A stretch of DNA of 64,000 bases, taken from assembly GCA_947372465.1 (NCBI GenBank), contig CANBTT010000010.1, forward strand, positions 1-64,000. Direction: 5' to 3'. Under the pieces are notes generated by a model. It saw only the letters and a program-made list of their open reading frames with translations. It did not search any database and was not told the origin of the DNA. This stretch comes from Burkholderiales bacterium (GTDB taxonomy: Bacteria; Pseudomonadota; Gammaproteobacteria; Burkholderiales; Burkholderiaceae_C). The stretch's first letter is position 1; every line of letters starts with the position of its first letter. The translations under genes were made by a program, and so were the position numbers. Shown in pieces: positions 18,282-32,826 of this stretch.

Positions 18282-18343
18282 CGTTTGAATGTTTGCGATG
18301 ACACTTGCTCACGCCCTCCCTGCACCTCAAGCTTTTGTCAAAC

Positions 18344-19321
18344 ATGTCCATCAAAAAAACCATCCTCTTTTTCATCACAGGCCTCCTTTGGCTTCATGGC
18401 CACTCACAAACCTATCCCTCTCGCCCCATCAACTTGATTGTTCCCTTCCCACCTGGAGGCTCAACGGATTTGATTGCTCGAGCATTGGCGCAACAGCTGT
18501 CAAGCCAAATAGGTCAGCCAATGGTGGTGGACAACAAACCGGGCGCTGGCGGAGGCATTGGAACGAACCTGGTGGCCAAAGCCCACAATGATGGGTACAC
18601 CCTTTTATTCACCACTTCAAGCACACACGCCATTGGTCCGAGCTTGAACAAGAACTTGCCCTACAACGTTGACACGGACTTCGTGCCTGTCATTCATGTG
18701 GCCAATGCATCCCATATTCTTTTGGTCTCCAAATCAGTCCCCGCCAGCAACTTGAAGGAACTGATTGATTACTTGAAAAAAAATCCTGGCAAATTCAACT
18801 ACGCGTCCAGTGGCAGTGGGACCATCATCCATTTGGCGGGTGAAGCGTTCAAGGCCGATGCTGGCGTATCGATCACCCACATCCCTTACAAGGGCTCCAC
18901 CCAAGCCATCCCCGATGTTGTCTCTGGCAAGGTTCAAATGATTTTTGACAACATCGTCTCTGGGCTGCCACACGTTGTGGATGGCAAATTGACGGCCATC
19001 GCCGTGACGAGCAAAAAACGCTCTGCGCTCGCTCCCGACATCCCAAGCATGATGGAAATTGGCAAGGAATTCGGCCTGGGCCATTTCCAGTCAGAAACTT
19101 GGTACGGTATGTATGCCCCCAAAGGCACAGGCCTGGACATCACAAGCGCACTCAACGCCGAGAGCAACAAGGCCTTGATCAATCCCAAAATGAAAGATCG
19201 ATTGAACTTCCTGGGCGCCGAGGCCGTGGGGGGAACCTCGGCCCAATTGGCCAGCATGGCAAAAATTGATCGTTTGAAGTGGGCCGAGATCATCCAAAAA
19301 AACAATATCATCCAAGAATGA
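18344..19321 (+). CDS. Bug/TctC-family solute-binding protein, tandem copy 1
   Basis: From the ATG at 18344 the 325-residue product has a signal peptide (MSIKKTILFFITGLLW, cut near HSQ) and the Bug core: TYPSRPINLIVPFPPGGSTD, VDNKPGAGGGIG, and ITHIPYKGS. It is closely related to the next gene: the mature parts are roughly three quarters identical by eye, including the unusual ending KWAEIIQKNNI. This points to tandem duplication. The ribosome site is weak. The ligand is unknown. Its position after the Tat flavoprotein could mean a shared substrate. Confidence 0.93.
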   Translation: MSIKKTILFFITGLLWLHGHSQTYPSRPINLIVPFPPGGSTDLIARALAQQLSSQIGQPMVVDNKPGAGGGIGTNLVAKAHNDGYTLLFTTSSTHAIGPSLNKNLPYNVDTDFVPVIHVANASHILLVSKSVPASNLKELIDYLKKNPGKFNYASSGSGTIIHLAGEAFKADAGVSITHIPYKGSTQAIPDVVSGKVQMIFDNIVSGLPHVVDGKLTAIAVTSKKRSALAPDIPSMMEIGKEFGLGHFQSETWYGMYAPKGTGLDITSALNAESNKALINPKMKDRLNFLGAEAVGGTSAQLASMAKIDRLKWAEIIQKNNIIQE

Positions 19322-19375
19322 CTTGCCCATCGCGCCTCCTTGATCTCTCACTTTTTAATTTTTAGGCCTGTTTTC

Positions 19376-20347
19376 ATGAAAAATATATGGATTGCTTTAA
19401 CGATTGCCTTGGTGAGCTTGAATGGCTTTTCACAAACCTACCCCGTCAAGCCGATTGACTTGGTTGTCCCCTTTCCCGCTGGGGGCTCGACCGATCTGCT
19501 TGCGCGCGCACTCGGACAACAACTCTCCTTGCAACTCGGACAACAAGTGGTGATCGACAACAAGCCAGGGGCTGGCGGGAGCATTGGGAGCACTTTGGTG
19601 GCCAAAGCACGCGATGATGGGTACACCCTTTTGTTCACCTCATCGAGCACACACTCGATTGGCCCCTCCTTGAGCAAAAATCTCCCCTACAATATCGACA
19701 CGGACTTTGTGCCGATCATTCATGTGGCCAATGCCACCAACATTCTTTTGCTCACCAAAACCATTCCCGTCAACAATCTCAAAGAGCTCATCGCTTATCT
19801 CAAAAGCAATCCAGGCAAATTGAATTACGCATCCAGTGGCAACGGCACGATCATTCACTTGACCGCAGAAGCGTTTAAAGCCGATGCCGGTGTCTCTATC
19901 ACGCACATTCCTTACAAGGGATCCGGCCAAGCCATCCCCGACATCATTTCAGGCAAAGTGCACATGGTCTTTGACAGCATCGTTTCTGCCATGCCCCATG
20001 TTTTAGACGGAAAATTAACAGCCATTGCTGTGACCGGGAAAAAACGCTCCGCACTGGCCCCCGAAGTGCCCACCATGATGGAGGCGGGCAAGGATTTTGG
20101 ATTGGCCAACTTTCAATCCGATACGTGGTGGGGTCTTTACGCCCCCAAAGGAACGCCCGTGGAGATCATCCATCTTCTCAATGCAGAAACCAACAAAGCT
20201 TTGCTCAACCCCAAATTAAAGGATCGCCTGAGTTTCTTTGGTGCTGAGGGAATGGGGGGCACACCCAGTCAGTTTTCATCGATGGCCCGAATCGATCGCT
20301 TGAAATGGGCCGAGATCATCCAAAAGAACAACATCACCCAAGACTGA
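19376..20347 (+). CDS. Bug/TctC-family solute-binding protein, tandem copy 2
   Basis: The ATG at 19376 starts a 323-residue protein with a signal peptide ending near GFSQ and the conserved VPFPAGGSTD, IDNKPGAGGSIG and ITHIPYKGS motifs. Differences from tandem copy 1 are spread over the whole length, mostly conservative, including SETWYGMY against SDTWWGLY near the ligand cleft, so the pair may have drifted to different ligands. The two genes are 54 bases apart and probably cotranscribed. Confidence 0.93.
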   Translation: MKNIWIALTIALVSLNGFSQTYPVKPIDLVVPFPAGGSTDLLARALGQQLSLQLGQQVVIDNKPGAGGSIGSTLVAKARDDGYTLLFTSSSTHSIGPSLSKNLPYNIDTDFVPIIHVANATNILLLTKTIPVNNLKELIAYLKSNPGKLNYASSGNGTIIHLTAEAFKADAGVSITHIPYKGSGQAIPDIISGKVHMVFDSIVSAMPHVLDGKLTAIAVTGKKRSALAPEVPTMMEAGKDFGLANFQSDTWWGLYAPKGTPVEIIHLLNAETNKALLNPKLKDRLSFFGAEGMGGTPSQFSSMARIDRLKWAEIIQKNNITQD

Positions 20348-20363
20348 AGCCCCACAAGCTTGT

Positions 20364-21335
20364 TCACTCAGGAACAATGCCAATCTTTGTCACGACTTTG
20401 CTCCACAGTTCGATTTCTTTTCGAATGATGTTTTTGAATTCAAGGGGTGTACCCCCTGAGGGCGTTGCACCATCTGCTTCTAGGCGACTGGCCGTGTCCT
20501 TTTTGGCCAAAATGGTGTTGACCTCTGAATTGATCCGGTCAACGACATCTTGAGGCATGCCTTTGGGGCCAATGATGCCGTACCAAAGCGTCACATCGTA
20601 GCCTTTAAAGCCCTGCTCCTCGATGGTGGGTGTATCGGGCAAAGCAGGGATGCGTTTGGAGCCGGTGACCGCCAAGGCTTGCAATTTGCCAGACTGCACC
20701 AAGGGCAGCGCACTGGCCGTCGCAGCAAAATAAATATCGACTTGGTTGGCCAACAAATCATTCAAAGCAGCGCCGCCTCCCTTGTAGGGCACATGGTTGA
20801 TGCCGATGCCTGCTTGATCGGCAAAGAGAGCGGCGCCCAAATGAAGTGCACTGCCCAAACCCGATGAGGCATAGGTCAATTGCGCGGGTTTGGCTTTGGC
20901 TTTGGCAATGAAATCAGCCAAGGTCTTGATGTGCTGGGAGGCGTTCACCACCACCAATAACGGCCCTTTGGAGGCTTGAACGATCGGCGTCATGTCGTTC
21001 ACGGGATCAAATTTGAGCTTGTACAGGCTGGGGTTGACCGTGTAGCTTGAAGAAATCAAGGTCAAGGTGTATCCGTCGGCAGGGGCTGCCAAGCCCGTTT
21101 GAATGCCGATCAACCCCCCTGCACCTGGTTTGTTGTCCACCAGCACGGGCTTGCCCAATGAAGTGCTCAAGCCTTGTGCCAAATAGCGGGCAAGGATGTC
21201 GGCTCCTCCACCTGGCACAAAGGTCACGATCAATTTGATGGGTTTGCTAGGGTAAGTATCTAGCGCCAACGCTGAAACGCAAGCCCATGGACAAAGGAAA
21301 GACACAAGCAGGTAAGGTATAAATTTTTGGAGCAT
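20364..21335 (-). CDS. Bug/TctC-family solute-binding protein
   Basis: A 323-residue protein with signal peptide (hydrophobic residues 6-24, cut near ALA) followed by TYPSKPIKLIVTFVPGGGAD, VDNKPGAGGLIG and INHVPYKGG. It is convergent with the tandem Bug pair, with only 16 bases between stops, and divergent from transaldolase. By eye it is clearly more distant from the tandem pair than they are from each other. The ligand is unknown. Confidence 0.93.
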   Translation of the reverse strand: MLQKFIPYLLVSFLCPWACVSALALDTYPSKPIKLIVTFVPGGGADILARYLAQGLSTSLGKPVLVDNKPGAGGLIGIQTGLAAPADGYTLTLISSSYTVNPSLYKLKFDPVNDMTPIVQASKGPLLVVVNASQHIKTLADFIAKAKAKPAQLTYASSGLGSALHLGAALFADQAGIGINHVPYKGGGAALNDLLANQVDIYFAATASALPLVQSGKLQALAVTGSKRIPALPDTPTIEEQGFKGYDVTLWYGIIGPKGMPQDVVDRINSEVNTILAKKDTASRLEADGATPSGGTPLEFKNIIRKEIELWSKVVTKIGIVPE

Positions 21336-22965: not shown

Positions 22966-23979
22966 TTGAAAACGACGCCACTTTTGCTTGTTGGAGCGCT
23001 TTTTTTAGGGGCCTTTTTTTTAGGTCCACGCACCTCTTATGAGCCCATCGACTTTAAGCTTGAGCGCCATGTGCCAGAGCAGCTGAGCGAGTTGGATGGG
23101 TGGCTAAAGCTCAAAGAGTCGGCCTTTAAAAATATCAAAGCCAACAATGAAAAAACCATTGTCTGGGCGAACGGCAAACGATCGGTCACCCCCTGGTCCG
23201 TTGTCTACATCCACGGCTTTTCCGCTTCTCGACTTGAATCGGCTCCACTGGCAGAATTGGTCGCGGACAAACTCAAGGCCAATGTGTTCTACACGCGCTT
23301 GAGCGGGCACGGTCAACGCCCAGAAGATCTAAAAAACGCCACCCCCCATCTTTGGGTGAACGACTATTTAGAGGCCCTGGACATCGGGCACCGCATTGGC
23401 AACCGGGTGCTGGTGATCAGTTGCTCAACGGGCTCCACCATCGCGGCCCTTGCATCACAAATGCATGACAGACAAGATACACAAGATGCGCAAGACGCTC
23501 GTAATCGTGAGGCGCATGTGTTCATCTCCCCCAACTTTGGGCCCAAAGACAAGCGCGCTGAAATCATCTTGGCGCCGTGGGGCGAGCAGTTGGCCTTTTT
23601 GATCGAGGGCAAAACCCACCTGAGCGCATCATCTGAGCCCGATGAACAATTGGGCTGGTACGATGCCTATCCGACAGAGTCCCTTTTTCCCATGATGTAT
23701 TTGGTCAAATTGGCCAGGAACAGCCGGCTGCAAGATTTCAACAGCCCTTTGTTGGTTTTGTACAGCGAAAGAGACCGTGTGGTTGATGTGGAGAACATCA
23801 AAACCGCTTTTGCTCAAATCGGGAGCCAACCCAAAACGCTCATCTCCATTCAAGACAGCGACAGCAAGGGACAACACGTTTTGGCTGGACGCATCAAGGC
23901 ACCCAAAGCACTTGACCCCATCAAGGAGCAAATTGTCCAATGGGTTCAAGCGCTGGAGAGCGATCAGGGCTTGAGGTAA
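22966..23979 (+). CDS. Membrane-anchored or exported alpha/beta-hydrolase
   Basis: A TTG start at 22966 has AAGG upstream and begins a signal-anchor (residues 4-20). The 337-residue protein has an HGFSASR oxyanion motif (83-89), GHG at 114-116, a nucleophile elbow SCSTG at 152-156 (Ser154; the first Gly of G-x-S-x-G is Ser), an acidic residue in YSERDRVVD and the catalytic His in GQHVLAG. It resembles the lysophospholipase/esterase branch. A hydrophilic D-Q rich insertion follows the nucleophile helix. It overlaps the convergent DsrE-like gene by 16 bases. Confidence 0.82.
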   Translation: MKTTPLLLVGALFLGAFFLGPRTSYEPIDFKLERHVPEQLSELDGWLKLKESAFKNIKANNEKTIVWANGKRSVTPWSVVYIHGFSASRLESAPLAELVADKLKANVFYTRLSGHGQRPEDLKNATPHLWVNDYLEALDIGHRIGNRVLVISCSTGSTIAALASQMHDRQDTQDAQDARNREAHVFISPNFGPKDKRAEIILAPWGEQLAFLIEGKTHLSASSEPDEQLGWYDAYPTESLFPMMYLVKLARNSRLQDFNSPLLVLYSERDRVVDVENIKTAFAQIGSQPKTLISIQDSDSKGQHVLAGRIKAPKALDPIKEQIVQWVQALESDQGLR

Positions 23980-24377
23980 GAAAAGCCTTCTTTGTTTTGA
24001 AGCCGCGTGATTCGAACCACGCCAGAGCTTGTGAAGTCCGCGTCAAGGATGAATTGGTCTTTGCTCAGACTTCTATTTTTCATGGTGTACTCACACACCT
24101 CAAACACCACCCCTTTGGACTTCAAGTCAGAGATCAGGGGCGCGTACTCCAGCTTTGAGTTTTTATCCACCGCACCTTGCATCAGCATGTCCACGCCAAG
24201 CGCATGGGTGACGGCAATGATTTTCGTGTCCGGTGCCGCCTCCAACTGATTTCTCATATTTCTAAGCCCTTTGAGGGCTTGCACATCGGTTTGATCAAAG
24301 TGGTAGACCACCTTGTCTTGTGCAAACAGCAGAGTGCAAAACAGGCACGCCATAAAAATCAAACAACTTTTTTTCAT
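23964..24377 (-). CDS. Secreted DsrE/DsrF-like protein
   Basis: A 137-residue protein with a signal peptide (MKKSCLIFMACLFCTLLFA) and a DsrE-like alpha/beta domain, recognisable from YHFDQTDVQALKGLRNMRN and the segment GVVFEVCEYTM. Cytoplasmic DsrE proteins carry sulfur for tRNA thiolation or sulfur oxidation; the exported branch found here is common in betaproteobacteria and its role is undefined. The single Cys of the mature part, in FEVCEYT, sits where the sulfur-carrier cysteine is found. Its 3' end overlaps the convergent hydrolase gene. Confidence 0.82.
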   Translation of the reverse strand: MKKSCLIFMACLFCTLLFAQDKVVYHFDQTDVQALKGLRNMRNQLEAAPDTKIIAVTHALGVDMLMQGAVDKNSKLEYAPLISDLKSKGVVFEVCEYTMKNRSLSKDQFILDADFTSSGVVRITRLQNKEGFSYLKP

Positions 24378-24442: not shown

Positions 24443-25918
24443 TCAGTACTGCACTTTCTTCAACTCAACGCTGTTGTCCTCAAGCTTATCGAGTTGGTTG
24501 TTCAACTGGGTCACCGTATTTTTAATCGCCTCGACTCGGCCGTGAAATTCATCTGATTTCTTCTTTCGAGCCAAGGCTATTTTTTCATCTCGCGTCAACA
24601 CGATTGGCGGCGCAATCACGGCCTTCTTGGCTTGAAGAGGCTCGGTGTTGGCCACCGACTCTTCGCCATCGGTCGACAAGTTCAACGTGGGCGCATTGCG
24701 CTCGCGTCGAATGGCGTCAAATTTTGCACGTCGATCGCTGATGCTTGAGGCATCAATTTTTGCAGTGTTGTCTTCAATGGGATGGCTGTCGTCTACGGGC
24801 AGGACATGGTCTTGGACAACTTCAGCGGCCAACTTTGCTGAATTGTCTGACCCCTTGTCTGAGTCAATGCGCACCTTGTTGTCATCAATCCCATCGACCT
24901 TGACGCCAACCGAACGGTCAACAACTTTTTCAGAATAGGCTTTCTCTGTCTGTTTGAGATCGTAAACAGTGCCCTCAATGTGGGCCACATTGCCAGCGTC
25001 CTCGTCTTTTGGAAGGGCCTGAACATTGTTGCTCTGGGCATCATTTTCCAATGAAATGTCGTTGCTGCGGGCTTGCTCGCCAGGCACTTTTTGTGCGTTT
25101 TCAGCGACCTTTGAAGCGTCTAACTTGATGGCCTTGTCTGAATCCACTTGGGATGCAACACTCTGAACATTGTTACCCGCTTGAGAAGACTCTAATTTTG
25201 CCTTGTTGTCTGCAATTTTGTCTTGATCGATCGATTGAACATTGCTAGCGGTCTTGTCCAGATCCAACTTGGCATTGTTGTCAGATGCTTTTGATTGTTC
25301 TATGCTTTGAACGTTCTTGGGCGCTTGAGTCCCGTCAATCTGGAGTTTGTGATCAGTGACCTTGTCCAAGCCTGCTTTTTGTAAGTTCTCTTCTAACTTG
25401 GAGGCCCTTAATTTTTGCAAGTTATCGTCTGAAGAGTCTTGATCGATTTTGAGCTGATTGGTGGAGGTCGAATCATTTTTTTCCAAATGACTGGTGTTCT
25501 TTTGGGCCTTGTCTTGTTCTAGTGCTTGGCGCCGATCTTTGATCTGATCCACATCCATGCCTTCAAGGTGGTCTTTTGATGACCCAGAGGTTTTGACTTG
25601 CTGAAGATTGCTTGAACTTTCAGCCGTGTCTAATTTTTGCAAATGGTCTTTTTGAGCATCCGCCTGAATTTTCAAGTTTTCGGAGGAGCTGGGCTCTGAG
25701 ACCACAGGTGCTTTGCCCGAACTTGCCCCATCAGAGGACAAAAGATTTTCTAAATGCTGATCCAAATCGATGTGTTCGTCTGAGGCAACTTTTCCTTTGG
25801 GGTCCTCTTCGCCAGCTTTGACCCAGCTTTTTTTGCCCTTTGCGTTCAAAGAGCCCGCCACCACCTCTACATTGTGAGGTGTGTCGTTTCTAACGATAAA
25901 AGGCTTGTTTTCTGACAT
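24443..25918 (-). CDS. Hydrophilic 12-residue-repeat protein of unknown function
   Basis: I do not recognise this gene. From the ATG at 25916-25918 it encodes 491 residues, very rich in Asp, Lys, Ser, Asn and Gln, with no Cys and no signal peptide or membrane segment. Residues 81-410 are made of about 25 copies of a 12-residue unit; from 154 to 310 the period is exactly 12, with Asn (or similar) at position 1 and Ile, Leu or Val at position 5. The first 45 residues are a separate segment (PFIVRNDTPHNVEVV). The last 50 (from DEKIALARKKK) look like a helical coiled coil. It may be a beta-solenoid or a disordered spacer. The start lacks a clear ribosome site; a GTG at 25957 is possible. Confidence 0.8.
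   Translation of the reverse strand: MSENKPFIVRNDTPHNVEVVAGSLNAKGKKSWVKAGEEDPKGKVASDEHIDLDQHLENLLSSDGASSGKAPVVSEPSSSENLKIQADAQKDHLQKLDTAESSSNLQQVKTSGSSKDHLEGMDVDQIKDRRQALEQDKAQKNTSHLEKNDSTSTNQLKIDQDSSDDNLQKLRASKLEENLQKAGLDKVTDHKLQIDGTQAPKNVQSIEQSKASDNNAKLDLDKTASNVQSIDQDKIADNKAKLESSQAGNNVQSVASQVDSDKAIKLDASKVAENAQKVPGEQARSNDISLENDAQSNNVQALPKDEDAGNVAHIEGTVYDLKQTEKAYSEKVVDRSVGVKVDGIDDNKVRIDSDKGSDNSAKLAAEVVQDHVLPVDDSHPIEDNTAKIDASSISDRRAKFDAIRRERNAPTLNLSTDGEESVANTEPLQAKKAVIAPPIVLTRDEKIALARKKKSDEFHGRVEAIKNTVTQLNNQLDKLEDNSVELKKVQY
24689..25678 (-). repeat. Array of degenerate 36-base (12-residue) coding repeats
   Basis: Translated units follow N-(V/A)-(Q/A)-(K/S)-(I/L/V)-(D/E)-x-x-(K/Q)-x-x-(D/N/S). 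In the middle the units alternate between NVQSI and N-x-AKL types, giving a 24-residue higher-order repeat. The units are conserved more in protein than in DNA. Confidence 0.75.
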
Positions 25919-26317
25919 TGAAGGCTTTTCACTTGTTTTGATACTCAGTTGACCCACTGCAAAATGGACGCAGCCACCTTGCCTGAAGCGTGCATGGCTC
26001 TCTTGCGATCAGTGCCACCCCCACGCTCTCGACCAAGCAAGAAGTCCCCATGGAGAAGACGACGCAAACACTCGCTCTAAACCTCATTATCGACACAAGA
26101 AGCGCTTTATGTATGTCAAGAATTACATTTAGTCCATTCAATAAAAATATGAATACCAAAGGTTTCATATTTTAAGCCTTCCATTTTGAGTTCAGCCCAT
26201 GTTGATGACTTTTTTGGTTTCTAATCTCTGCATACCGTGACCACTGGCCCCTGCAAGAGTCCGCTTGGCGACACGCAAGGCCAGCAATGCACCACCTCCT
26301 GAAGCAACTCAAACATC
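25919..26317. other. 399-base divergent intergenic region
   Basis: It separates the repeat-protein gene (minus) from the second kup (plus). I see no gene, no RNA family signature and no strong promoter. The part just before kup, 26255-26300, is GC-rich and could fold, but no defined structure can be supported. Confidence 0.6.
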
Positions 26318-28258
26318 ATGTCACTCAGTCACCCTGCACTTTCGACATCTAAACAACTGGAACCCGTCGCCATTGAGCAAGAGCAGCACCTGGCTCGGGG
26401 AAGTCTACAGTCCCTGGCTTTGATGGCCATGGGTGTGGTATTTGGTGACATTGGGACAAGCCCCCTTTATGCCATCAAGATTTGTTTTGACCCCATCCAC
26501 GGCATTGAGATGAACGAGGTCTCCATTTTTGGCGCGATGTCACTCATTTTTTGGACCTTGACCTTGGTGGTCTCTGTCAAATACATGCTTTTTGTGATGA
26601 GAGCAGACAACCATGGCGAGGGCGGTATTTTGGCACTTTTGGCCTTGGCACTTAAAAACACAAAGACCAACTCCACAAAAGCAAAGATACTGATGGCACT
26701 GGGTGTCATTGGTGCGAGCCTCTTTTATGGTGAATCGGTGCTCACACCAGCGATCTCTATTCTCTCAGCGGTTGAAGGCATCACCGTTGCGTCGGAAAGC
26801 TTTTCTAAATACATCATTGCTTCAACGGTCTTGGTTGTTGTTCTTTTGTTCTTGTTGCAAGAAAAGGGCTCGGTCATTGTCAATAAAATGTTTGGCCCCG
26901 TGATGCTGCTTTGGTTCTTGGTCATTGCAGGCATGGGTGCGCACGAAATCATGGCCTACCCACAAATTTTATTGGCCATGAATCCACTTTATGCAATGGA
27001 TTTCATCGTGCAACACAAAGCCATGGCATTTGCAGCAAGTGGCTCGATCTTTTTGGTGATCACTGGGGTAGAAGTCTTGTATGCGGACATGGGTCATTTT
27101 GGCATCCAACCGATACGCTATGCATGGTATGCCTTTGTCATGCCAAGCCTGGTGCTCAACTACTTTGGCCAAGGGGCCATGTTGATCAATCACCCGGAGA
27201 ACATTGGCAATCCCTTCTTTTCAATGGCCCCTGAAAACTGGGTCTTTTGCTTGGTTTTGTTCTCGGTCGTGGCCACCATGATCGCCTCTCAGGCCTGCAT
27301 CTCAGGCGCCTTCTCCATGACCAGTCAAGGCATCATGTTGGGCTTCATTCCCAGAATGAAACTTGTGCACACCTCTGAGAAAAAAATTGCACGCATTTAT
27401 GTGCCCTTCATCAATTGGGTGCTGTGCCTGGCTGTCATCTTATCGATCCTGGGGTTTCAACGCTCAGAACACTTGGCCTTTGCTTATGGCATGGCCGTGT
27501 CGATCACCATGCTGATGACAAGCTTGCTTTTAGCCGTGGTCATGCGCGATGTATGGAAATGGCCCAAATGGGGGATTGCAAGCATCGTGTGCGCCTTCAT
27601 GGTGCTGGACTTGAGCTTGTTTTTGTCAAACACGGAAAAAATACTTGAAGGCGGGTGGTTCCCTTTGGCCATTGCTTGCGTCGTTTATTTGTTGACAATG
27701 ACTTGGTTCCAAGGACGCAATTTGCTCAGAGAAAAAACCATTGACCTAGGGGTGAACATTGAAGACTTCATGGCTAGCTTGTTAGCGCATCCGCCCCACC
27801 GGATCGAGGGAACGGCCATTTTCTTTACCTCGCACATCGATTTCGTGCCTCCCGCTTTTTTACACAACCTCAAACACAACCGAGTCTTGCATCAAAGAAT
27901 TCTTTTTTTAAAGGTCAGCGTTTGGGATGTTCCAAGAGTGGCCGATGCGCAAAGGATCAGCCTGCGCGAGATTCATGACAATGTGTTTCTTGTGCGAGCC
28001 ATCTTTGGTTTCAAAGAAACGCCTGATATTTCGCGTGTGATGGCCTTATTAAAAGAACAGCACGACCTCAGTTGCCCCTTGATGACGTGTTCCTTCTTCA
28101 TGGCCAGAGACTCTTTGGTGCCCAGGGAAATTCCACAAATGGCCATGTGGCGTGAGTCGATATTCATTTGGATGCTTCAAAATTCAACCCGGGCATCCGA
28201 CTTCTTCAAAATAGATTCGGGCAGGCTCATTGAGTTAGGAACCAAAATTGAACTGTAA
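26318..28258 (+). CDS. kup: Kup-type potassium transporter, second copy
   Basis: The 646-residue protein has the Kup signature VFGDIGTSPLYAIK (residues 42-55), about 12 membrane segments and a C-terminal soluble domain from near residue 485. Compared with the Kup at 4934-6826 it has a longer N-terminal tail and many substitutions, so it is a separate lineage. It imports K+ with H+ at the inner membrane. A 399-base leader region precedes it. It is convergent with a Bug gene, 23 bases away. Confidence 0.96.
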   Translation: MSLSHPALSTSKQLEPVAIEQEQHLARGSLQSLALMAMGVVFGDIGTSPLYAIKICFDPIHGIEMNEVSIFGAMSLIFWTLTLVVSVKYMLFVMRADNHGEGGILALLALALKNTKTNSTKAKILMALGVIGASLFYGESVLTPAISILSAVEGITVASESFSKYIIASTVLVVVLLFLLQEKGSVIVNKMFGPVMLLWFLVIAGMGAHEIMAYPQILLAMNPLYAMDFIVQHKAMAFAASGSIFLVITGVEVLYADMGHFGIQPIRYAWYAFVMPSLVLNYFGQGAMLINHPENIGNPFFSMAPENWVFCLVLFSVVATMIASQACISGAFSMTSQGIMLGFIPRMKLVHTSEKKIARIYVPFINWVLCLAVILSILGFQRSEHLAFAYGMAVSITMLMTSLLLAVVMRDVWKWPKWGIASIVCAFMVLDLSLFLSNTEKILEGGWFPLAIACVVYLLTMTWFQGRNLLREKTIDLGVNIEDFMASLLAHPPHRIEGTAIFFTSHIDFVPPAFLHNLKHNRVLHQRILFLKVSVWDVPRVADAQRISLREIHDNVFLVRAIFGFKETPDISRVMALLKEQHDLSCPLMTCSFFMARDSLVPREIPQMAMWRESIFIWMLQNSTRASDFFKIDSGRLIELGTKIEL

Positions 28259-28281: not shown

Positions 28282-29256
28282 TCATTGCTGCGCCTTGATT
28301 TGGGCCTCATCAATGACTTTGGCGTATTTCTCAAACTGTGATTTGATGTAGAGAGAAAAATCCTTACTGTTTAAATATGAGGGGTAGAGTCCCGCCACAA
28401 AAAGCTTTTGCTGGGTCTCAGGCTCCTTCAAGGCCGCAGCAAAGTCCTCATTGAGTTTAGACACAATGTCTTTGGGCGTGCCGGTGGGAGCAGCCACACC
28501 AAACCAAGCAGCGGCCTCGTAATCTTTGTACCCAAGTTCATGAATGGATGGCACCCCTTTGAGGGCATCGAGTCGACCAAGCGTGGTCACGGCCAGTGCT
28601 CTTAGCTTTTGCCCCTCGATCATGGCCGAGACTTCAGACAAATTGGTCAATACGGCACTCACATGCCCGCCCATCACCGCATTCGCAGCCAGCAAGCCGC
28701 CAGAAAAAGGCACATAAGTCAGATCCAGTCCCACCATTTTTTTGAGCAACTCCCCGGCAATGTGCTGGGTAGAGGACGGGCCCACGGTCGAGTAGCTCAA
28801 GGCCCCAGGTTGGGCTTTTGCCGCATCAACAAACTCCTTGAAACTAGCATAAGGACTTTGCGAGCTCACCGCAAAAACTTGTGGAGAATAGGTCAGCAAA
28901 GCAATGGGCTCAAACGCCTTCAAACCGTCATAGGGCATGTTGGTGTTGAGTTTGGCATTGATCACCAAACTGTTGGCGATGATGAGCAATGTATAGCCAT
29001 CTTGAGGGGCTTTGGCAACCATCGCCCCGCCAATGATTGTCCCGCCCCCGGGTTTGTTCTCAACGATGACCGATTGCGACCATTTTTTGCTCAAGGTCTG
29101 CCCCATCACGCGCGCCAAGGTGTCCACAGATCCCCCGGCCGGGAAAGGGACCACAATTTTGACCGGTTTATTGGGAAAGGGCTCAGCACAAATGGCCTTC
29201 GTGGCCAAGACCAGGCTCAACCCAAGAAAAACACCCAAGCAATTGATCCATCTCAT
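28282..29256 (-). CDS. Bug/TctC-family solute-binding protein
   Basis: A 324-residue exported receptor: signal peptide ending near AICAEP, then FPNKPVKIVVPFPAGGSVD, VENKPGGGTIIG and a LTYVPFSGG loop where most relatives have H-I-P-Y-K-G. The change of Y-K to F-S in the loop that contacts the bound carboxylate may indicate a different ligand. It has no transporter partner nearby. Confidence 0.93.
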   Translation of the reverse strand: MRWINCLGVFLGLSLVLATKAICAEPFPNKPVKIVVPFPAGGSVDTLARVMGQTLSKKWSQSVIVENKPGGGTIIGGAMVAKAPQDGYTLLIIANSLVINAKLNTNMPYDGLKAFEPIALLTYSPQVFAVSSQSPYASFKEFVDAAKAQPGALSYSTVGPSSTQHIAGELLKKMVGLDLTYVPFSGGLLAANAVMGGHVSAVLTNLSEVSAMIEGQKLRALAVTTLGRLDALKGVPSIHELGYKDYEAAAWFGVAAPTGTPKDIVSKLNEDFAAALKEPETQQKLFVAGLYPSYLNSKDFSLYIKSQFEKYAKVIDEAQIKAQQ

Positions 29257-31588: not shown

Positions 31589-32572
31589 CTATTCGACTTT
31601 GATGTTGACGGTTTTAATCAGCTTGTTCCATGTTGCCAGATCAGATACCACTTGTGCAGCAAACTCCTCCGGTGTGTTGCCCACGGGTTCAATCGCGTCA
31701 GCCACCAACCTTTCTTGAAAGTCGTGTCTTTTGATGATGGAGATCACATCCGCATTGATTTTATGTACCACATCTCGGCTCATGCCGGGAGGGCCCATGA
31801 AACCATACCAAGCTTCAACTCGAAAGCCAGGAAGCGTCTCAGCAATGGCCGGTACATTTGGCAAAGCCTTGGAGCGAGATGCACTTGTGATGCCAATCGG
31901 CTTTAATTTGCCCCCCTTGATGAGCTGAATGGAGGCGGTGATGCCACCAAAAATCAGGGGCACATGTCCAGCCATGACATCGTTGATGCCTTGACCAAAA
32001 CCTTTGTAGGGAATGTGTGCAATGTTCACATCGGCCATGGACTTGACCATCTCCATGGACAAATGCTGTTGTCCGCCCGCCCCTGAGGAGGCATAGCTGA
32101 TTTTACCGGGCTGCTGCTTGCCCAGGGCAATCAACTCTTTGACAGTGTTGGCAGGAAAACTGCTGTTGGCCAACATCACAAAGGGGCCGGAGGCCACATT
32201 CACAATGGGCGTCAAATCTTTGACCGAATTGTAGGGTGCTGCATACAGGTTGGGGGCAATCGTGATGGATGCATCCGCGGCAAAGAGCAAGTTGTAGCCG
32301 TCTGGCGTTGATTTGGCAATGTAGTCGGTCCCAATCATGCCACTGGCACCTGTTTTGTTCTCAACAATCACCGACTGCTTCCACAGTGTGCTGAGTTCTT
32401 GGGACAAAATCCGACCATAAATGTCTGGCGTGCCTCCGGGTGGAAAGGTCACGATGACTTTGACGGGTTTATTGGGGTAGGACTGAGCTTGTGCAAGCAA
32501 CGGGGCTGAAACGATCAGCGCCAAGCTTGCGCCAAGGGCCAGCATTTTGCTTCTAAAAAAACGTCTATTCAT
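31589..32572 (-). CDS. Bug/TctC-family solute-binding protein
   Basis: The ATG at 32570-32572 begins a 327-residue receptor with a signal peptide (NRRFFRSKMLALGASLALIV, cut near AQA). Conserved parts are SYPNKPVKVIVTFPPGGTPD, VENKTGASGMIG and IAHIPYKGF. An in-frame ATG six codons upstream is less likely. It is convergent with pal across the terminator. The ligand is unknown and no permease is adjacent. Confidence 0.93.
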   Translation of the reverse strand: MNRRFFRSKMLALGASLALIVSAPLLAQAQSYPNKPVKVIVTFPPGGTPDIYGRILSQELSTLWKQSVIVENKTGASGMIGTDYIAKSTPDGYNLLFAADASITIAPNLYAAPYNSVKDLTPIVNVASGPFVMLANSSFPANTVKELIALGKQQPGKISYASSGAGGQQHLSMEMVKSMADVNIAHIPYKGFGQGINDVMAGHVPLIFGGITASIQLIKGGKLKPIGITSASRSKALPNVPAIAETLPGFRVEAWYGFMGPPGMSRDVVHKINADVISIIKRHDFQERLVADAIEPVGNTPEEFAAQVVSDLATWNKLIKTVNIKVE

Positions 32573-32826
32573 GGTGTTGATTCTATCCAAAATTTAAGGG
32601 GTTAAAGGCTTACAGCCAAAGCGCTTGAGCAAGCCAAGAATAAAAAAATAAATGAATGCTTCCTAGGTATGATTGATCTATGAAAGACATAAAAGCACGC
32701 TTCACCAAAGGTGGGCAAAGTCTGCAATTGAGCTTATTGGATTTACACCATGCTTTTGGTCAGCATTAACCCTAAAATCATTTTAGGTCAAGTTCGTTTG
32801 AACCTGCATTTGCAAGGGAATAGGGC

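Follow-up and report, generated by a model that had tools for sequence, protein, structure and literature searches.

The window analysed here is a 64,000-nucleotide stretch of a Burkholderiales bacterium (assembly GCA_947372465.1, contig CANBTT010000010.1, positions 1 to 64,000 of the forward strand). It carries a gene for a 491-residue repeat protein. By its sequence this is a full-length paralog, encoded away from the flagellar genes, of a protein of the flagellar cluster, which we name X; we regard this as a strong result, and we found X described nowhere. As a relocated relative of a flagellar-cluster protein, the window protein is probably a flexible scaffold linked to motility. Homology, gene order, repeat structure and constraint are computed results; as a function we propose, with moderate confidence (a probability of about 0.5), a soluble multivalent scaffold that split off from a flagellar accessory module. 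The gene begins with an ATG at 25918 on the minus strand and encodes 491 residues plus a stop, and an alternative GTG start at 25957 would give 504 residues. The gene and its parts are as follows.

24443..25918, minus strand: gene for the 491-residue repeat protein, the copy outside the flagellar cluster (open reading frame (ORF), with a ratio of nonsynonymous to synonymous substitution rates (dN/dS) of 0.27 against the ortholog at locus L004)
25784..25918, minus strand: N-terminal conserved region, residues 1-45, with FIVRNDTPHNVEVVAGSLNAKGKKSWV (alignment; a hidden Markov model (HMM) of the region finds the flagellar-slot proteins)
24689..25678, minus strand: repeat array, residues 81-410, [DA]-N-x-[QA]-x-[ILV]-x6, 12 and sometimes 13 residues per unit (periodicity and position matrix)
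24446..24601, minus strand: C-terminal region, residues 440-491, including the helix DEFHGRVEAIKNTVTQLNNQLDKLE (alignment and C-terminal profile)

Proteins of the family combine an N-terminal motif, a repeat array and a C-terminal helix. The N-terminal motif of the repeat-type X proteins reads I-I/V-R-S-x4-H-x-V-x-V-x2-G-x2-N-A-K. The window protein carries this I-I/V-R-S motif, an array of 12-13-residue units and the helix R-x6-I/V-x3-N-x2-L-D, in which F, R, I, V, N and L are invariant across 21 alignment rows. At six loci a long family member is encoded inside the flagellar cluster, after flhB and between two genes that we call c15 and c16, and a seventh locus (L171) has a 209-residue member in this slot. 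The gene order is flhB, c15, X, c16, where c15, the gene after flhB, encodes a protein with a C-terminal SPOR-type region and c16 a membrane coiled-coil protein, judged by eye to have one membrane-span region and an extended coiled coil. Pfam matches in single loci confirmed FliI, FliJ, FliO, FliP and FliQ. Matches of c16 to IcmG/DotF (24.5 bits against a cut-off of 200) and to FapA (below its cut-off) were weak and of coiled-coil type, and were not used.

The link between the dispersed copies and the slot was recovered from both ends of the protein. An N-terminal HMM, built from 27 non-flagellar copies (27 of 29 loci fitted the search pattern), matched 11 of 2,514 ORFs in 28 flagellar loci at E≤1, and all 11 lie between c15 and c16. 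Four of these matches are strong, with E values from 1.5e-9 to 7e-6, the one at 7e-6 coming from another genus (L226); the other seven are weaker, between 0.0066 and 0.85. The C-terminal HMM matched 21 ORFs of the flagellar loci at E≤1, of which 20 are the ORF between c15 and c16 and one is a c15.

In the L226 slot protein the period is 13 residues, with 50 identities at that lag against a mean of 24 in shuffled sequences (reached by 0 of 500 shuffles). The order flhB-c15-X-c16 recurs in a different family of the order (L243), where X carries the N-terminal motif at E 2.6e-6 together with an array of period 13, in which lag 13 gives 77 identities compared with 29 on average after shuffling (0 of 500 shuffles reach it); the array of that family includes glycine-rich D-R-x-A-G versions of the unit. 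In a second species of the L243 genus (L244) a stretch resembling the motif can be seen by eye, but the period is not strong, and two further genera with c15 (L225 and L227) gave no match to the N-terminal motif. A previously unannotated repeat protein thus gains a context that can be tested: the position downstream of flhB, which is found again in other genera and in another family of the same order.

In the window's own genome the cluster (L092) reads fliP, fliQ, fliR, flhB, c15, slot ORF, c16, flagellin. Its slot ORF encodes 128 residues without repeats and matches the C-terminal HMM at E 2.3e-9, so that the genome holds both this short ORF and the window repeat gene. The flagellin gene beside these genes (L092:4309-6489, plus strand) encodes 726 residues.

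We extended the analysis of the slot to the whole genus. A c15 match was found in 79 of 84 genomes of the genus, in 7 of 200 genomes of a family sample (5 of 141 genera) and in 7 of 250 of an order sample (6 of 121 genera); FliP was found in 77 of the 84. Two extra order-level c15 matches had little around them, with no flagellar match in the stretch read for G614 and just an flhB-like ORF (E 2.7e-7) for G578. The slot census took in 77 of the 79 c15 genomes, with 78 c15 loci, and left out G013 and G016, where only the N-terminal part of c15 was matched and the contig seemingly ends. Both c15 and c16 were readable at 75 loci in 74 genomes (G040, G058 and G076 lack a readable c16). A slot protein was called repeat-type if it had the N-terminal motif or at least four units, and a copy elsewhere was defined as a C-terminal profile match outside the slot, by which rule G023 and G075 counted as negatives despite repeat or N-terminal matches.

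Thirteen genomes carry a repeat-type slot protein; in the other 61 it has no repeats and is mostly 129-271 residues long. None of the 13 repeat-type genomes has a copy outside the slot, compared with 52 of the 61 repeat-less genomes (Fisher 4.8e-9); the repeat-less count includes G045, G061 and G083, whose picked slot ORF is unlike X, and without them the figure is 49 of 58. The genus thus offers a natural case in which the repeat array stands apart from the operon and the operon copy keeps the helix only. Repeat-type slot proteins also occur in the two other genera represented by L226 and L243, which suggests that a slot protein with an array came first, although the c15 tree itself gives no direction.

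The array that defines the family is regular. Strict 12-residue repeats had been predicted from the letters of the window alone, and the combined Asn/His signal at period 12 over residues 81-410 has a power of 15.76, far beyond chance (2,000 shuffles gave a mean of 0.99 and a maximum of 7.42, none reaching the observed value). The hydrophobic signal (ILVMF) is weaker, being reached by 25 of 2,000 shuffles for residues 81-410, 2 of 2,000 for residues 154-310 and 368 of 2,000 for the whole protein, and neither Gln alone nor Lys alone has a period of 12 in the window protein. Between residues 154 and 310, where exact 12-residue spacing had been claimed, Asn stands at one phase in 12 of 14 units and I, L or V follows four residues later in 12 of 13, at the positions originally listed. 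Sequence identity is 0.167 at lag 12 and again at lag 24, against about 0.05-0.10 at most other lags. The proposed 24-residue super-repeat of alternating NVQSI and NxAKL units is clear in the window protein only for about six units after residue 200, and is very regular in the relative at L009. The count of about 25 units in residues 81-410 was generous, with 17 distinct units lying above the position-matrix threshold.

Across the family the unit is [DA]-N-x-Q-x-[ILV]-x6, as read from 883 units in 62 ORFs that passed a repeat filter, mostly of this family with a few unrelated or antisense ORFs included. Asn occupies position 2 in 96% of units, Gln position 4 in 82% and I, L or V position 6 in 92%, as gathered by a position matrix that was seeded on N-x-Q-x-[IVL] and grew from 669 to 883 units. 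Spacing is mostly 12 residues, with 13 the next commonest. The number of units varies among relatives, as had been proposed for examination, from 11 to 29 in 18 short-family proteins.

Comparison with the nearest ortholog (L004, 86% identical) gave dN/dS values of 0.27 for the whole gene, 0.22 for the array and 0.17 for residues 431-491; the values were lowest for residues 1-60 (0.075) and for the unit cores (0.08, 40 codons), with 0.21 for the linkers (52 codons). L009 is more distant, and in that comparison the synonymous sites have reached saturation. The gene is therefore under constraint, strongest at the N-terminus and in the unit cores, a pattern to be expected if a flexible chain carries short, conserved docking motifs.

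From these results we propose a mechanism. X would act as a soluble multivalent scaffold whose C-terminal helix may pair with a coiled-coil partner, either c16 or a partner copy, and this pairing would link X to a complex in the envelope of which the SPOR-type protein is a member. A cytosolic client could then bind repeatedly, with every D-N-x-Q-x-(I/L/V) unit serving as a putative site. Close to the flagellar base, the array protein, c15 and c16 might together make up a platform anchored in the envelope. Septal peptidoglycan is the ligand of SPOR domains, and a likely outcome would be the placing or tethering of the flagellar base at the pole that derives from division. In most genomes of the genus the jobs seem to have been divided, the operon copy keeping the helix only and a second gene, such as that in the window, keeping motif, array and helix.

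Several results weigh against this proposal. The window copy does not lie between c15 and c16 and instead adjoins a transporter gene. The SPOR match passes in the window genome's own c15 (23.1 bits, cut-off 21) but falls below the cut-off in two of three c15 proteins scanned (L161 and L243). A c15 tree made by a quick method (61 genus rows, 58 of them with a label from among the 75 slot loci, 10 repeat-type and 48 repeat-less, plus 4 long-branched outgroup rows) needs three slot-type changes, one of which is forced by well-supported branches. With one to three changes behind it, the complementary pattern of slot and dispersed copies reflects few events, and an independent-pairs test on the slot pattern was unable to reach significance. 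In G042 and G035 FliP is present, but no repeat-type protein occupies the slot and no repeat copy occurs outside it, and four genomes with a repeat-type slot (G020, G032, G043 and G069) match a query for a TerB-type protein described below. Finally, G068 has no FliP or c15 match and two matches to the FlhF model, compared with three in most genomes, yet its dispersed gene is intact and encodes a long array; a role outside the flagellum, perhaps together with the TerB protein, is therefore conceivable.

We also considered whether the dispersed gene decays when flagella are lost. Three genomes with the repeat gene have no FliP or c15 match, and they give no consistent pattern: in G021 (L132) the gene is broken across two reading frames in the assembly, in G047 an 82-residue piece remains that was probably cut by the contig end, and in G068 the gene is whole. 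The FliP match of G030 (G030:C1:9561-10163) is weaker than most (E 7e-59), and that genome has no c15 or repeat-protein match.

The TerB-type protein is a second carrier of the repeat. The window's own genome encodes a 1,017-residue protein in which two TerB stretches (Pfam E 9.3e-14) are joined to the same 12-residue repeat, with a coiled-coil-like region by inspection.

G000 contig C1, L083:8522-11575, plus strand: TerB-TerB-repeat protein gene, 1,017 residues (Pfam)

Both this carrier and the paralogy with a flagellar-cluster protein lay beyond the reach of the original prediction, which had one window. At L083 the TerB-repeat gene is followed by an ion-channel gene; upstream of it, a response regulator and a 7TMR-DISM histidine kinase are encoded on the other strand. 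At seven loci (L084-L088, L090 and L091) the TerB-repeat gene comes after members of a response-regulator and histidine-kinase cluster; Pfam, run on these neighbours for L084 and the window's own genome, confirmed them in L084. A membrane span is predicted near the C-terminus in 21 of 36 TerB-protein rows (16 of 30 after repeated genomes are removed), several rows being cut by the locus end; no such span is predicted in the own-genome TerB protein (L002).

A broader scheme is conceivable, if on balance doubtful. In it a three-protein flagellar module of which we found no description (SPOR-type membrane protein, array protein and membrane coiled coil) would anchor the base of the flagellum in the envelope, and in this genus the array would have become a separate gene and also been joined to TerB, so that the 12-residue motif would be a docking code shared by at least two cytosolic platforms per cell. 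Alternatively, the window protein could be a scaffold independent of the flagellum in a TerB-linked membrane stress system, in which both proteins assemble through their shared repeats under the control of the neighbouring two-component system. The shared repeat, the regulator and kinase genes near the TerB-repeat gene and the persistence of the short protein in G068 without FliP are all in keeping with this. So is the likeness in repeat make-up of the short and TerB arrays, 0.155 within genomes against -0.010 between genomes (permutation p 0.0013, 18 genomes), although shared descent was not removed from that comparison and would be expected to produce the same likeness. However, the TerB N-terminal query matches 49 of 84 genomes of the genus, some of the matches being short TerB-only ORFs, whereas the short protein is found in 70 of 84. 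The N-terminal motif was not found in TerB proteins (best E 1.4, 36 rows). We regard this TerB-linked explanation as rather improbable.

A different possibility concerns the fold. The original prediction offered a beta-solenoid or a regular polar spacer ended by a coiled coil, and the protein does have a polar array of regular period, with a helix of coiled-coil character at its end. In a beta-solenoid or cytoplasmic fibre, the alternating positions of N-x-Q-x-(I/L/V) would face inward with one strand per coil, building ladders of Asn and Gln. The suggested modelling of the window array with AlphaFold2 (AF2) placed a strand on every unit core, one per 12-residue unit, albeit with a predicted local distance difference test score (pLDDT) of 51 and a predicted template modelling score (pTM) of 0.33. 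Foldseek with this model returned 29 matches, none significant (best E 2.0), most of which we take to be beta-solenoids or beta-helices. A second, more regular array of the family was instead modelled as helices (pLDDT 45, pTM 0.14), contradicting the first run, so that on the solenoid the low-confidence models disagree. A charge-hydropathy plot puts the slot array of L161 among folded sequences, and the three parts of the window protein and the L030 array on the disordered side. The unit length varies between 12 and 13, the other family has the glycine-rich unit versions, and the 330-residue window array contains three aromatic residues and no Cys. We give a solenoid or fibre a fairly low probability.

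Two further explanations fare worse. The protein could be a flagellar-export substrate or length gauge with a FliK-like role, in which the exported array sets a distance by its length; in the slot genomes the gene is one position from flhB, and the number of units varies widely. Nevertheless, the repeat-less slot protein of 61 of 74 genomes, the retention of the dispersed gene in G068 with no FliP match, and motif cores that are more constrained than linkers make this very unlikely. That the array is a functionless product of neutral low-complexity expansion, which the free variation of unit number and linkers among genomes might suggest, was already disfavoured and is scarcely credible given the dN/dS of unit cores and N-terminus and the conservation of Asn and Gln across the 883 units, even allowing for their selection by an N-x-Q-seeded matrix.

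For X as a motility-linked scaffold, the closest functional picture would be that of HubP/FimV or FipA, although the features of their sequences that we looked for are lacking. Like HubP/FimV, X may offer a long polar cytosolic region as a platform for many clients, tied to placement of the flagellum. The window protein differs in having no match to a LysM-like periplasmic or FimV domain among the Pfam matches listed at E≤10, and no predicted membrane span (no 19-residue segment has a mean hydropathy above 1.6). FipA is likewise a flagellar accessory protein encoded beside flagellar genes (PMC11620751); it has a membrane span plus DUF2802, recruits FlhF and is encoded after the operon with flhF and flhG. 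The window protein has neither a span nor a DUF2802 match, and the gene for X follows flhB-c15. TerB proteins (PF05099) are related to the system through the second repeat protein of the genome (L002), whereas the window protein itself has no TerB match in Pfam. Beetle antifreeze proteins also have 12-residue coils, and are secreted and rich in Cys and Thr; the window array shares the period and lacks Cys.

The FlhF matches bear on how bacteria of this genus place their flagella. The curated cut-off of the FlhF model (174 bits) is passed in 2 of 84 genomes and missed in 82, most genomes having, besides matches of signal recognition particle (SRP) type, a full-length match of about 92-130 bits. 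In the window's own genome the FlhF-like protein (G000:C26:8711-9835) spans the full model and scores well below the cut-off. G038 (C44) and G067 (C142 and C118) have a second FliP and an FlhF match above the curated cut-off, suggesting that they carry a second flagellar system.

In line with the original prediction, no described family was found for the protein: searches of Pfam, NCBIfam and PDB sequences with the protein or its array gave chance-level matches only. No tblastn match to the repeat protein was obtained in plasmid and phage records, and no description of the repeat family was found in open-licence literature on 12-residue or tandem repeats, TerB, SPOR or polar flagellar modules. 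The family is thus without description in the searches made. The suggested survey of related genomes showed it to be widespread in the genus, where the C-terminal profile matches 70 of 84 genomes (37 of 40 of good quality) and the array profile 71 of 84. Beyond the genus, six of 399 genomes (141 genera) in a family sample match the C-terminal helix profile, all of them belonging to the window's own genus, and in an order sample of 399 the array profile matched the window's own genome only. Segments in other genomes are 21-58% identical, the L004 gene being listed there as G040 at 84-87%. The alignment and profile sets were A2 (26 of 44 array segments), A3 (without L033) and A4 (17 rows).

The dispersed gene does not keep a single set of neighbours. 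In 13 of the 18 loci examined (L075-L078, L081, L082, L089, L163-L165, L169, L173 and L174) its immediate neighbour is a tRNA-Leu(CAA) gene, and the window contains no tRNA gene, so the dispersed gene occupies several chromosomal sites. In the window its neighbours are as follows.

23964..24377, minus strand: DsrE-like protein gene, next downstream (Pfam DsrE E 6.5e-8)
26318..28258, plus strand: divergent upstream neighbour, a transporter gene (similarity cluster)

The DsrE-like gene also adjoins the repeat gene in L005, L006 and L093. The product of 26318..28258 is presumably a transporter of the potassium-uptake type; genes of its cluster adjoin the repeat gene in L004, L005, L006 and L093 and lie about 1.6 kb away in L078. 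Several ORFs around the repeat gene (18305-21335, 28282-29256 and 31589-32590) form one similarity cluster, which we take to be tripartite-tricarboxylate receptors of the Bug/TctC type.
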